Shown piece by piece: positions 36,508 through 62,220 of a DNA stretch of 64,000 bases. The stretch covers positions 62,001-126,000 of IMG/VR virus record IMGVR_UViG_3300043449_000492, one strand, 5' to 3'. How positions within the stretch are numbered: the stretch's first letter is position 1; each line of letters starts with the position of its first letter. Source of the stretch: a virus. Under the pieces are notes generated by a model. The model saw nothing but the letters and a program-made list of their open reading frames with translations. It did not search any database and was not told the DNA's origin. A program made the translations under genes and the position numbers.

Positions 36508-36541
36508 GCATCTATCGTTGAACAAGTGAAAGGAACTTTAT

Positions 36542-36781
36542 ATGTCGAATTCCAATGCCGCTCTCCTCGCCCGTATTGCGGAACTTGAAGCTCAGGTTGC
36601 TAAGACTCCTAAGAAGGCTCTTTCCCTGAAGGTTTCCCAGAAGGGTGCGGTTTCTCTCTATGGCATGGGTCGCTTCCCCGTCACTCTTTACGCTTCCCAG
36701 TGGGAGCAGCTTCTGGGTGAAGCGGAAAAGATCAAGGAATTCCTTGACAAGAACAAGGAAACGCTCGCTGTCAAGGCGTAA
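36542..36781 (+). CDS. Small coiled-coil/beta protein at the head of the CobS/CobT-like module
   Basis: A 79-aa protein. Residues 1-22 form an amphipathic helix (NAALLARIAELEAQVAKTPK), then KVSQKGAVSLYGMGRFPVTL, a short strand pair, and a final helix LLGEAEKIKEFLDKNKETLA. The middle motif is common in small phage proteins of unknown role. It is bounded by its own promoter and terminator, so it is a single-gene unit, and codon use is GC-richer in third positions than upstream genes. Probably strongly and early expressed. Confidence 0.65.
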   Translation: MSNSNAALLARIAELEAQVAKTPKKALSLKVSQKGAVSLYGMGRFPVTLYASQWEQLLGEAEKIKEFLDKNKETLAVKA

Positions 36782-36851: not shown

Positions 36852-36878
36852 AAGTGAACAATCGTGAAAGGGCACTTT

Positions 36879-39153: not shown

Positions 39154-39187
39154 GGTTTAGAGGGGGCTTGACATTCCTCTCTAAACC
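39154..39187 (+). repeat. Inverted repeat bracketing a -35 element
   Basis: GGTTTAGAG at 39154-39162 and CTCTAAACC at 39179-39187 form a perfect 9-bp inverted repeat with 16 nt between. The -35 TTGACA (39168-39173) lies in the interval. As RNA it would be a 3' hairpin on the VWA transcript; as DNA it could be an operator. No T-run follows. Confidence 0.65.
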
Positions 39188-39196
39188 AGCTATAAT
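39168..39196 (+). promoter_or_regulatory. Sigma70-type promoter for the MoxR/CobS-like gene, perfect consensus
   Basis: -35 TTGACA at 39168-39173, a 17-nt spacer and -10 TATAAT at 39191-39196. The -35 sits inside the loop of the surrounding inverted repeat. Confidence 0.9.
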
Positions 39197-39231
39197 GTGT
39201 CATAATCGAAATCGTGAAAGGAATAGATTGT

Positions 39232-40500
39232 ATGGCTAAGTCTAATATGTCCACCCGTGACCAGTTCCTCGATAAGGTTCGTTTCGAGTTCGGAGCTATC
39301 ACTACCATCACCCGTACCCAGGTCAAGCAGGTTTGCGACAAGTATGACCTGTCGTTCCCCACGTGGCTTCGCAAAGATGCCACTCGTCAGGTTGCCCGCG
39401 GTGTGTATGCTCTTACCGAGCATGGCGCTACTCCCGCTGCGCCTGTGACTGCTACCGCTATCAAGGCTGCAAAGTCTAAGGCTCCGAGAGTGTCAAAAAA
39501 GGTCGCTCCGACCAAGACCGCTAACATTCAGTCGAATGTCCCCGTGGTCGATAGCATCGTGGCTATGGCTTCGACGGTTGCCATGTCGGCTCCGTCCACT
39601 TCAGCTTCGGCCGATGTTTCGCTCGTTCCTGAAAAGTCTTCGGGATACGTTCCGTTCGGTAACTTTGCCGACGTTCGTTCCATTATCAAATCTCGTAAGT
39701 TTTACCCGGCTTACATCACTGGTCTTTCTGGTAACGGTAAGACGATGATGGTCGAGCAGGTTTGTGCTGCTGAAAAGCGTGAATGTGTCCGAGTTAACGT
39801 GACCATTGAGACCGACGAAGATGATCTTATCGGCGGCTTCCGTCTTGTTGACGGACACACCGTGTGGCAGGACGGTCCTGTTATCATCGCCATGCAGCGT
39901 GGTGCGATCCTGCTTCTCGACGAGGTTGATCTTGGCTCTAACAAGCTTATGTGTCTCCAGCCTGTCCTCGAAGGCAAGTCGGTCTTCCTTAAGAAGATTA
40001 ATCGTTTGGTTCATCCTGAGGCAGGGTTCAACGTCATTGCGACTGCGAACACCAAGGGTAAGGGTTCCGACGATGGTCGCTTCATTGGCACCAACGTAAT
40101 GAATGAGGCGTTCCTTGAGCGTTTCAGCATCACGATGGAGCAGGAGTACCCTGCGGCTAAGACCGAGACGAAGATCCTTAACAATGTTCTAGGTGCTTCT
40201 AACATTGAAGCTAAGGAGTTTGTTGAGAAGCTTGTCACCTGGGCTGATGTTATCCGTAAGTCATTCTACGAGGGTGCTCTTTCGGAAATCATTTCGACCC
40301 GTCGTCTCGTCCATATCTGCGAGGCTTATGCTATCTTTAACCAGAACCGTGTGAAGGCAATTGAGCTGTGCCTTAACCGCTTCGACGTGGACACCAAGAA
40401 TGCTTTCATGGAACTCTATAAGAAGGTCGATGAGACCGTTGATCCGACTGCTGTTTCGGAATCGGAAGCAGCCCCTGTGGGTGAAGAGGTTGCTTTCTGA
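39232..40500 (+). CDS. MoxR/CobS-like AAA+ ATPase
   Basis: A 422-aa ATPase from ATG 39232 (AAAGGA upstream). The first about 60 residues are a small helical domain with a winged-helix look (ITTITRTQVKQVCDKYDL then SFPTWLRKDATRQVARGVY), then an Ala/Ser-rich linker. The AAA+ core starts near residue 150: Walker A GLSGNGKT at 164-171, the MoxR-type DLIGGFRLVDG, Walker B ILLLDEVD, and sensor-1 NVIATANTKGKG. It is the partner type of CobT-like VWA proteins, and the pair is known from T4-like cyanophages where it is named cobS. Codon use is shifted like its partner. Confidence 0.88.
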   Translation: MAKSNMSTRDQFLDKVRFEFGAITTITRTQVKQVCDKYDLSFPTWLRKDATRQVARGVYALTEHGATPAAPVTATAIKAAKSKAPRVSKKVAPTKTANIQSNVPVVDSIVAMASTVAMSAPSTSASADVSLVPEKSSGYVPFGNFADVRSIIKSRKFYPAYITGLSGNGKTMMVEQVCAAEKRECVRVNVTIETDEDDLIGGFRLVDGHTVWQDGPVIIAMQRGAILLLDEVDLGSNKLMCLQPVLEGKSVFLKKINRLVHPEAGFNVIATANTKGKGSDDGRFIGTNVMNEAFLERFSITMEQEYPAAKTETKILNNVLGASNIEAKEFVEKLVTWADVIRKSFYEGALSEIISTRRLVHICEAYAIFNQNRVKAIELCLNRFDVDTKNAFMELYKKVDETVDPTAVSESEAAPVGEEVAF

Positions 40501-40509
40501 ATGACTAAG

Positions 40510-40536
40510 TTCGGCCTCACCCAACAAGAGGCCGAA
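40510..40536 (+). terminator. Hairpin after the MoxR/CobS-like gene
   Basis: A perfect 9-bp stem, TTCGGCCTC at 40510-40518 and GAGGCCGAA at 40528-40536, with a 9-nt loop, starts 9 nt after the stop. No T-run follows, so it is a weak terminator or 3'-end stabiliser. Confidence 0.65.
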
Positions 40537-40568
40537 GTCCTCGACAGAGAATTTCTAAATGTTTTCTG

Positions 40569-40597
40569 TTGACATTCCCAGAATACCCGTGTATAAT
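40569..40597 (+). promoter_or_regulatory. Sigma70-type promoter for the winged-helix gene, perfect consensus
   Basis: -35 TTGACA at 40569-40574, a 17-nt spacer and -10 TATAAT at 40592-40597. The -10 lies within one arm of a 12-bp inverted repeat. Confidence 0.9.
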
Positions 40598-40628
40598 GAA
40601 CTTTGATGCTGCTGATTTATACACGGGT
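40585..40628 (+). repeat. 12-bp inverted repeat over the -10 and start region (operator-like)
   Basis: ACCCGTGTATAA at 40585-40596 and TTATACACGGGT at 40617-40628 are perfect reverse complements, 20 nt apart. The left arm covers most of the -10, the right arm lies about 15-25 nt into the transcript. Since the left arm is not fully transcribed it is best read as a DNA site, possibly for the winged-helix protein encoded just downstream. Confidence 0.75.
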
Positions 40629-40654
40629 CTTTCCTTTCACGACCAGCAGCATCA
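40604..40654 (+). promoter_or_regulatory. Leader hairpin at the 5' end of the winged-helix transcript
   Basis: TGATGCTGCTG at 40604-40614 and CAGCAGCATCA at 40644-40654 form a perfect 11-bp stem starting at about the predicted transcription start. Its loop contains the right arm of the operator-like repeat. It ends 26 nt before the ATG, just before the ribosome-binding site region. Confidence 0.7.
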
Positions 40655-40679
40655 CAACTTTGAAATGGAGAACTATATA

Positions 40680-40904
40680 ATGGCTACTGCAAAGAAGACT
40701 CAGATTGAGAAGATTGAGACCGCCCTTCGTCGTTACAACACTGGCGCTGGTGTGACCGCTGATAAGGTTGCTTCAATGGCTCGTGTTCCTCGTGAAGCTG
40801 TTGCAAAGCGAGTTTCGGATCTTCGTGATTGGGGTTACACCATCTATACGAACTACCGTAATGTCAATGGTAAGCGCACTGCTTTCTATCGCATTGCCGA
40901 CTAA
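40680..40904 (+). CDS. Small winged-helix DNA-binding-like protein
   Basis: A 74-aa basic protein from ATG 40680 with TGGAG upstream. An open frame extends further 5' but lies in the promoter and leader. The sequence reads as a compact winged helix: IEKIETALRRYNTGAGVTAD, KVASMARVPREAVAKRVSDL as helix-turn-helix, and a wing with YTIYTNYRNVNGKRTAFYRI. It is about the size of minimal phage regulators. Given the inverted repeat on its own promoter it may regulate itself; this is inference. It is the last gene of the codon-shifted module. Confidence 0.7.
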   Translation: MATAKKTQIEKIETALRRYNTGAGVTADKVASMARVPREAVAKRVSDLRDWGYTIYTNYRNVNGKRTAFYRIAD

Positions 40905-40923: not shown

Positions 40924-40961
40924 TATAATAGCGTGGAGGCTTATAGCGTCTCCACGCTATT
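40924..40961 (+). promoter_or_regulatory. -10-like element overlapped by a 12-bp inverted repeat
   Basis: TATAAT at 40924-40929 is overlapped by AATAGCGTGGAG (40927-40938), which is the perfect reverse complement of CTCCACGCTATT (40950-40961). No good -35 is present at 17 nt, where an AT-rich near-palindrome CTAAAATAATTTAG lies instead. It is in the 75-nt gap before the glycosyltransferase gene and resembles the arrangement at 40585-40628. It could also be the 3' hairpin of the previous unit. Confidence 0.6.
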
Positions 40962-61917: not shown

Positions 61918-62220
61918 TTAGGATTCTAGGTCAACGTGGGAAGATGGAGGATATACTGCACCATGTAGTCTTTCGGCAGTTGCCTTTAGAGTATCTGCAA
62001 GTGCTTCGATATCGTCTGCATCTGGGTGTGGCTTAGTTGCACAAACACGAAGCTGCTCAGCAAGATCGTGAATTTCGTTGACAGCCTCATCAACTGCTTT
62101 ATTAACAAGCGCAACGGCTTCTTTTAGTTCTTCTAGTTCTAGACTCATTTGTGCTACCTTTCCTTCTAAGTTGATGATTCTAAGATCATCCAATAATAGA
62201 TAACGGATCCATTGAAACAT
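61918..62220 (-). CDS. Coiled-coil protein on the minus strand
   Basis: A 100-aa acidic helical protein, the only credible minus-strand gene. It has a short hydrophobic start (FQWIRYLLLDDLRIINLEGK), then heptads (SLELEELKEAVALVNKAVDE and AVNEIHDLAEQLRV), and an ADDIEALADTLKATAERLHG helix. The ribosome-binding site is GGGAG 7 nt upstream of the ATG. Farther up, a perfect TATAAATA late promoter is followed at once by AAAGGAGG. Coding support is the promoter, site and helical periodicity. Role unknown, perhaps a small virion or lysis-control protein made late. Confidence 0.75.
   Translation of the reverse strand: MFQWIRYLLLDDLRIINLEGKVAQMSLELEELKEAVALVNKAVDEAVNEIHDLAEQLRVCATKPHPDADDIEALADTLKATAERLHGAVYPPSSHVDLES

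Follow-up and report, generated by a model that had tools for sequence, protein, structure and literature searches.

The window analysed here, a stretch of 64,000 nucleotides (nt), covers positions 62,001 to 126,000 of the IMG/VR virus record IMGVR_UViG_3300043449_000492 and belongs to a phage record of 169,069 bases. Its gene neighbourhood is T4-like, with a gp45 sliding clamp, a gp44 clamp loader, a deoxynucleoside monophosphate (dNMP) kinase and a pair of CobT-like and CobS-like proteins. The cobS-like AAA+ gene (39232-40500, + strand; PHROG 249, E 3e-120) lies directly 5' of a gene for a 74-amino-acid protein (40680-40904, + strand), and at the boundary between the two we find a pair of interleaved inverted repeats that, from their pattern of variation in relatives, almost certainly represent a conserved structured RNA absent from Rfam. 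The product of the downstream gene matches Pfam HTH_39 weakly and is a winged helix according to AlphaFold (predicted local distance difference test, pLDDT, 86.6) and Foldseek, as an earlier inspection of the letters alone (the sequence-only reading) had proposed.

Helix 1 joins arm A (40585-40596, ACCCGTGTATAA) as its 5' strand to arm A' (40617-40628, TTATACACGGGT) as its 3' strand, with pairing at 12 of 12 positions, and helix 2 joins arm B (40604-40614, TGATGCTGCTG) to arm B' (40644-40654, CAGCAGCATCA) in the same way, with 11 of 11. All four arms are on the + strand in the interleaved order A-B-A'-B', exactly as the sequence-only reading had placed them. The winged-helix gene is preceded by a sigma-70 promoter that matches the consensus at 12 of 12 positions (TTGACA-N17-TATAAT, 40569-40597, + strand), its -35 box TTGACA at 40569-40574 being separated by a 17-base-pair (bp) spacer from the -10 box TATAAT at 40592-40597. 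The -10 box shares five of its six bases with arm A, and transcription is predicted to start at about 40604, the first base of arm B; both placements had been recognized before. Arm A is upstream of this predicted start and thus would be present in read-through RNA only. Perfect sigma-70 promoters number 8 in the window, against 0.09 expected, and none of the other perfect promoters of the genome has the interleaved arrangement. Nowhere else in the 169-kilobase record do two inverted repeats with arms of 10 bp or longer interleave, and 10 simulated windows yielded 0 such pairs. We also weighed a reverse-strand promoter reading from the A' arm and rejected it, since no -35 box could be recognized by eye. 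A 23-codon open reading frame (ORF) at 40501-40572 (MTKFGLTQQEAEVLDREFLNVFC) overlaps the cobS stop and ends within the -35 box; inserts resembling it are present in two relatives (L014 and L083).

The A:A' helix alone has a predicted energy of -15.9 kcal/mol and the B:B' helix one of -17.0 kcal/mol, in agreement with the 5'-terminal RNA hairpin previously assigned to B. The two helices are topologically compatible; by a geometry judged by hand, they would make an H-type pseudoknot whose loops measure 7, 2 and 15 nt. It is important to consider that the fold is likely to depend on where the transcript begins. In RNA read through from cobS, both helices would pair and form the pseudoknot at the boundary of cobS and the winged-helix gene, with A' folded away. 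Because the promoter overlaps A, RNA from the gene's own promoter would lack this arm, and its only helix would be hairpin B at the 5' end, with a 29-nt loop that would expose A', as its first half, and the loop L3 (40629-40643, + strand, CTTTCCTTTCACGAC). In the predicted fold of this shorter RNA the B stem has a pairing probability of ~0.97 and L3 is ~74% unpaired. We infer both the pseudoknot as a three-dimensional fold and the read-through transcription from the sequence. The sequence-only reading had assumed that the left arm is never transcribed, an assumption that fares poorly: cobS has a perfect sigma-70 promoter of its own (39168-39196, + strand) that could transcribe through arm A, and the terminator scan listed no + strand site in the interval from cobS to the winged-helix gene. 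Nor does the element resemble an intrinsic terminator, as it is unlisted by that scan, the A:A' loop measures 20 nt and a CU-rich tail occurs only in one group of relatives, subtype I. A' ends at 40628, 38 nt 5' of the ribosome-binding site of the winged-helix gene, and B' ends at 40654, leaving unsequestered the gene's own Shine-Dalgarno sequence (GGAG, read from the sequence at 40667-40670, + strand, 12 nt past B') and its ATG at 40680.

Protein-based scans of IMG/VR recovered 35 and then 68 loci of the winged-helix gene, with about 40 distinct sequences upstream of it; no further group emerged from a third scan that used the most divergent members. Neither the gene nor the element has a relative among 50,697 isolate phages in DNA and protein searches, and the GTDB genomes searched held no relative. 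CobS is common in isolate phages; in Pelagibacter phage HTVC008M the gene 3' of cobS is annotated as ribosomal protein S21. Scans of IMG/VR for the exact A...A' pattern, ignoring B, yielded no contig besides those in which the winged-helix gene had been identified, so the element is tied in cis to this gene. A search of 4227 Rfam families at permissive thresholds gave only chance matches to microRNA, small nucleolar RNA and unrelated small RNA families.

Covariation was evaluated on 29 distinct subtype-I sequences. Pairing is kept in 99.7% of cells in helix A and 99.4% in helix B (99.5% overall), and falls to 28-42% in controls in which one strand was slid by 1-3 columns. Changes on both sides affect 7 of the 22 pairs and amount to 44 cells, compared with 11.8 in shuffles. 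Placed on the gene tree, the C-G/U-A pair of A needs at least 3 state changes inside subtype I, and the four double-change pairs of B that vary most need at least 5, 7, 4 and 3; these counts of independent events are rough and a guide only, since the tree of this short gene is poorly resolved. Furthermore, a second subtype (subtype II, 10 loci), alignable through the TATAAT box, has different arm sequences in the same A-B-A'-B' order, with A of up to 16 bp and B of 6-7 bp; two of its members, L061 and L059, differ by three compensated pairs in A. Seven subtype-II loci carry a tRNA-Gly-like gene between A' and B' (L010:398-469 and L027:2347-2418, and upstream of the gene in L055, L081 and L091-L093). 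These inserts have what we take to be a glycine-type end (U73, CCA), the encoded CCA adjoins or forms part of B', and ARAGORN reported an abnormal anticodon loop in both of the genes scanned. In some tRNA-bearing loci, 1-3 positions of A are mismatched. One such position is the second base of TATAAT, which retains its promoter identity and is no longer paired. A lone hairpin of different sequence occupies the same place in the outgroups L100 and L101; a second helix of 5-6 bp that can be drawn there was discounted, as by a rough estimate such a helix is often expected by chance.

The sequence-only reading had taken A for an operator in the DNA, with the winged-helix protein binding the half-sites A and A' while B acts as an RNA hairpin, giving a putative autoregulation at two levels. 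The position of A over the -10 box, the spacing of the half-sites (32 bp, about three helical turns) and the nature of the product agree with this proposal, and some of the G-T steps in the arms could be operator drift. However, subtypes whose A:A' sequences diverge (CCCGTGTATAA; CCTGTGTATAA; CCCTGCTATAATG; CCTACTATAATG) have almost identical recognition helices (REAVAKRVSDLR in the window, REAVAKRVADLR in the subtype-II member L010), so that half-sites and protein are not conserved together, and the compensatory and G-U changes fit base pairing. Four variants have TGTAAT in place of TATAAT, losing the key A of the -10 box and retaining a G-U pair with A'. Matches to the -35 box show two peaks among relatives, complete (6/6) in about half and at most 2/6 positions in about a third, and A:A' is still paired where the box is missing; in those loci the element often begins right after the cobS stop, with A ~13 nt past it. 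A hairpin at the cobT/cobS junction (GGTTTAGAGGGGG/TCCTCTCTAAACC, 39154-39187), which encloses the -35 box (TTGACA) of the cobS promoter in its loop, has arms that vary freely yet stay complementary across most subtype-I relatives. The G-U pairs of the TGTAAT variants, the pairing without a -35 box, the constant recognition helix and the freely varying arms at the cobS junction favour base pairing in RNA transcribed from upstream. An RNA helix therefore seems a better fit to A:A' than an operator; we consider the two-level operator improbable, and a DNA role for A alongside its pairing in RNA possible. Quasipalindrome correction is a mutational process of T4, and template switching of this kind during phage replication can make imperfect repeats perfect and might keep the arms complementary with no selected function. 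It would not preserve two interleaved repeats, a fixed promoter spacing, L3 and the same topology in a diverged subtype, and we regard this explanation as extremely improbable.

The loop of hairpin B contains UUCCUUUCACGA, the exact complement of the cobS ribosome-binding site, a match that the sequence-only reading had overlooked. Within L3, positions 40631-40642 (TTCCTTTCACGA) form a 12-nt perfect complement to this site (39212-39223, + strand, TCGTGAAAGGAA), which we propose as the first target; the second and third, of 10 nt each, are the ribosome-binding sites of cobT (36862-36871, + strand, TCGTGAAAGG) and of the gene preceding it, here pre-cobT (ORF 36542-36781; site at 36526-36535, + strand, GTGAAAGGAA). 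The motif GTGAAAGG has 8 occurrences on both strands of the genome; one is L3 itself, and three of the others are the ribosome-binding sites of pre-cobT, cobT and cobS, which are consecutive genes. When 225 leaders were ranked by their longest complement to L3, these three genes stood in the top four, together with an ORF at genome position 166009. This last ORF (G000:166009, L136) has an 11-nt complement at its ribosome-binding site and, in our reading, a signal-like start and an L,D-transpeptidase-like sequence. Across 169,126 windows scanned, only L3 reaches at least 12 nt of complementarity to the cobS leader, and only L3 at least 9 nt to all three leaders. The predicted duplex of the hairpin-B loop with the cobS translation start has an energy of -25.2 kcal/mol, rank 1 of the 225 leaders (mean -10.5, standard deviation 3.5), and gains extra pairs of A' with the stretch from the Shine-Dalgarno sequence to the AUG.

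This complementarity follows the subtypes. Between A' and B', subtype I has a nearly invariant CTTTCCTTTCAC(GA), and all 22 subtype-I genomes tested gave z scores of -2.0 to -6.1 relative to shuffled loops; subtype II, in which L3 is absent, gave values of ~0. Most subtype-I genomes retain the cobT leader motif TCGTGAAAGG; its place is taken by CGAG in subtype II and by CAGG in the L086 group, whose L3 has changed from CACGA to CATCA. One subtype-I genome (L037) has lost the cobT motif and retains 13 nt of complementarity to cobS, and in L077 the L3 sequence CACTA matches a changed cobS leader, AAGTG, in a compensatory manner. In relatives, the cobS ribosome-binding site is frequently enclosed in a small hairpin loop, with stems that vary from one relative to the next, such as ATGAGA/TCTCAT (L046) and ATCGAA/TTCGAT (L043).

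Two further explanations make no use of an antisense loop. In the first, the element would be a boundary between messenger RNAs (mRNAs), with A:A' as the 3'-end hairpin of cobS read-through RNA, B:B' as a protective 5'-terminal hairpin of the winged-helix mRNA, and their overlap a matter of compactness. The similar hairpin at the cobT/cobS junction, with its covarying arms around the -35 box, another hairpin at the next junction, and the start of B at the predicted transcription start in relatives are all consistent with it; the invariant L3, the tRNA insertions and the interleaving kept in both subtypes are left unexplained, and we judge it unlikely. The next-junction hairpin (AATAGCGTGGAG/CTCCACGCTATT, 40927-40961) overlaps a TATAAT at 40924, ahead of the gene after the winged-helix gene. 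The second is a translational operator of the kind found in gene 32 of T4, T2 and RB69, an autoregulatory pseudoknot (PMC3014915; PMC535899). Here a protein, perhaps the winged-helix protein repressing its own translation, would bind the pseudoknot through contacts in L3, as could be expected from the strict conservation of L3 in subtype I, the constant association of the element with the winged-helix gene and the A/U-rich stretch between B' and the start codon. Yet subtype II lacks L3 with about the same protein, RNA from the gene's own promoter would be without the pseudoknot, and the complementarity to three neighbouring ribosome-binding sites goes unaccounted for, making this operator unlikely as well. 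The gene 32 structure also has two interleaved helices, here backed by covariation. It differs in that its product is a single-strand binding protein and not a winged helix, that the stems here are of 11-12 bp and that, in our reading, its structure is independent of an internal promoter.

We turn to an RNA switch acting on neighbouring genes, which seems more likely than a binding site for the encoded protein. The sequences show the conserved pairing of A with A' and of B with B', the promoter lying over A, and the complementarity of L3 to ribosome-binding sites in correlation with subtype. Under this proposal, firing of the downstream promoter would release an RNA whose loop, in subtype I, would be antisense to the cobS translation start (12 nt and further pairs) and less extensively to cobT and pre-cobT, masking their ribosome-binding sites and reducing the synthesis of CobT and CobS. 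This repression of CobT and CobS by the own-promoter RNA is inferred. We give about an even chance to the proposal as a whole, that is, a leader whose structure depends on its origin and whose antisense loop masks the ribosome-binding sites of cobS, cobT and pre-cobT. The antisense role toward the CobT/CobS cluster, taken by itself, would stand somewhat short of even. A stricter version, in which a trans-acting antisense leader made only from its own promoter shuts off the three preceding genes and the sister group has replaced the loop by a tRNA, is possible and decidedly tentative. Several observations weigh against the proposal, in addition to the rough event counts given above. Either helix could form alone; L077 offers the single clear compensatory change between L3 and a leader, the rest being conservation; L3 and ribosome-binding sites share composition (UCCUUUC and GAAAGGA), so that their complementarity is partly generic; GTGAAAGG occurs in the cobS leaders of some subtype-II genomes and of L101, which have no antisense loop; and the subtype-II loop requires a different explanation.

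A close precedent for a structure set by the origin of the transcript is T4 gene e, whose promoter lies inside the 5' strand of a helix (PMC3014915). The same arrangement is seen here, with the -10 box inside arm A, and the gene e principle together with an antisense loop offers the simplest interpretation of the element. In gene e the 3' strand covers the ribosome-binding site of gene e itself and the promoter is a T4 late promoter, whereas here the own Shine-Dalgarno sequence is left free, the promoter is of the sigma-70 type, a second helix is interleaved with the first, and the ribosome-binding sites to which the loop is complementary belong to other genes. The c4 RNA is encoded upstream of its target as a distinct RNA that is made by processing and base-pairs with a ribosome-binding site. 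In phages P1 and P7 this antisense RNA acts on an adjacent gene within one operon (Rfam RF01695; PMC2864571, PMC8198154). The element would likewise pair with neighbouring genes of its operon; unlike c4, which lies 5' of its target, the proposed antisense here is in the leader of a downstream gene, and among the 4227 Rfam families the c4 covariance model RF01695 gave no match to it. GOLLD, a giant structured phage RNA often of >800 nt, sometimes holds a tRNA within it (PMC12286853). The element shares with GOLLD the occasional internal tRNA, differs in its size of ~75 nt (~150 nt with the tRNA) and is unrelated by the Rfam search.

These results describe what is almost certainly a conserved structured RNA, new to Rfam, in uncultured T4-like phages, with its candidate targets named. 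It would be a rare case in which a promoter, a pseudoknot-forming helix and an antisense loop fall within ~70 shared bases. In our reading, the element bears on the CobS/CobT pair of these phages, whose synthesis it may reduce.
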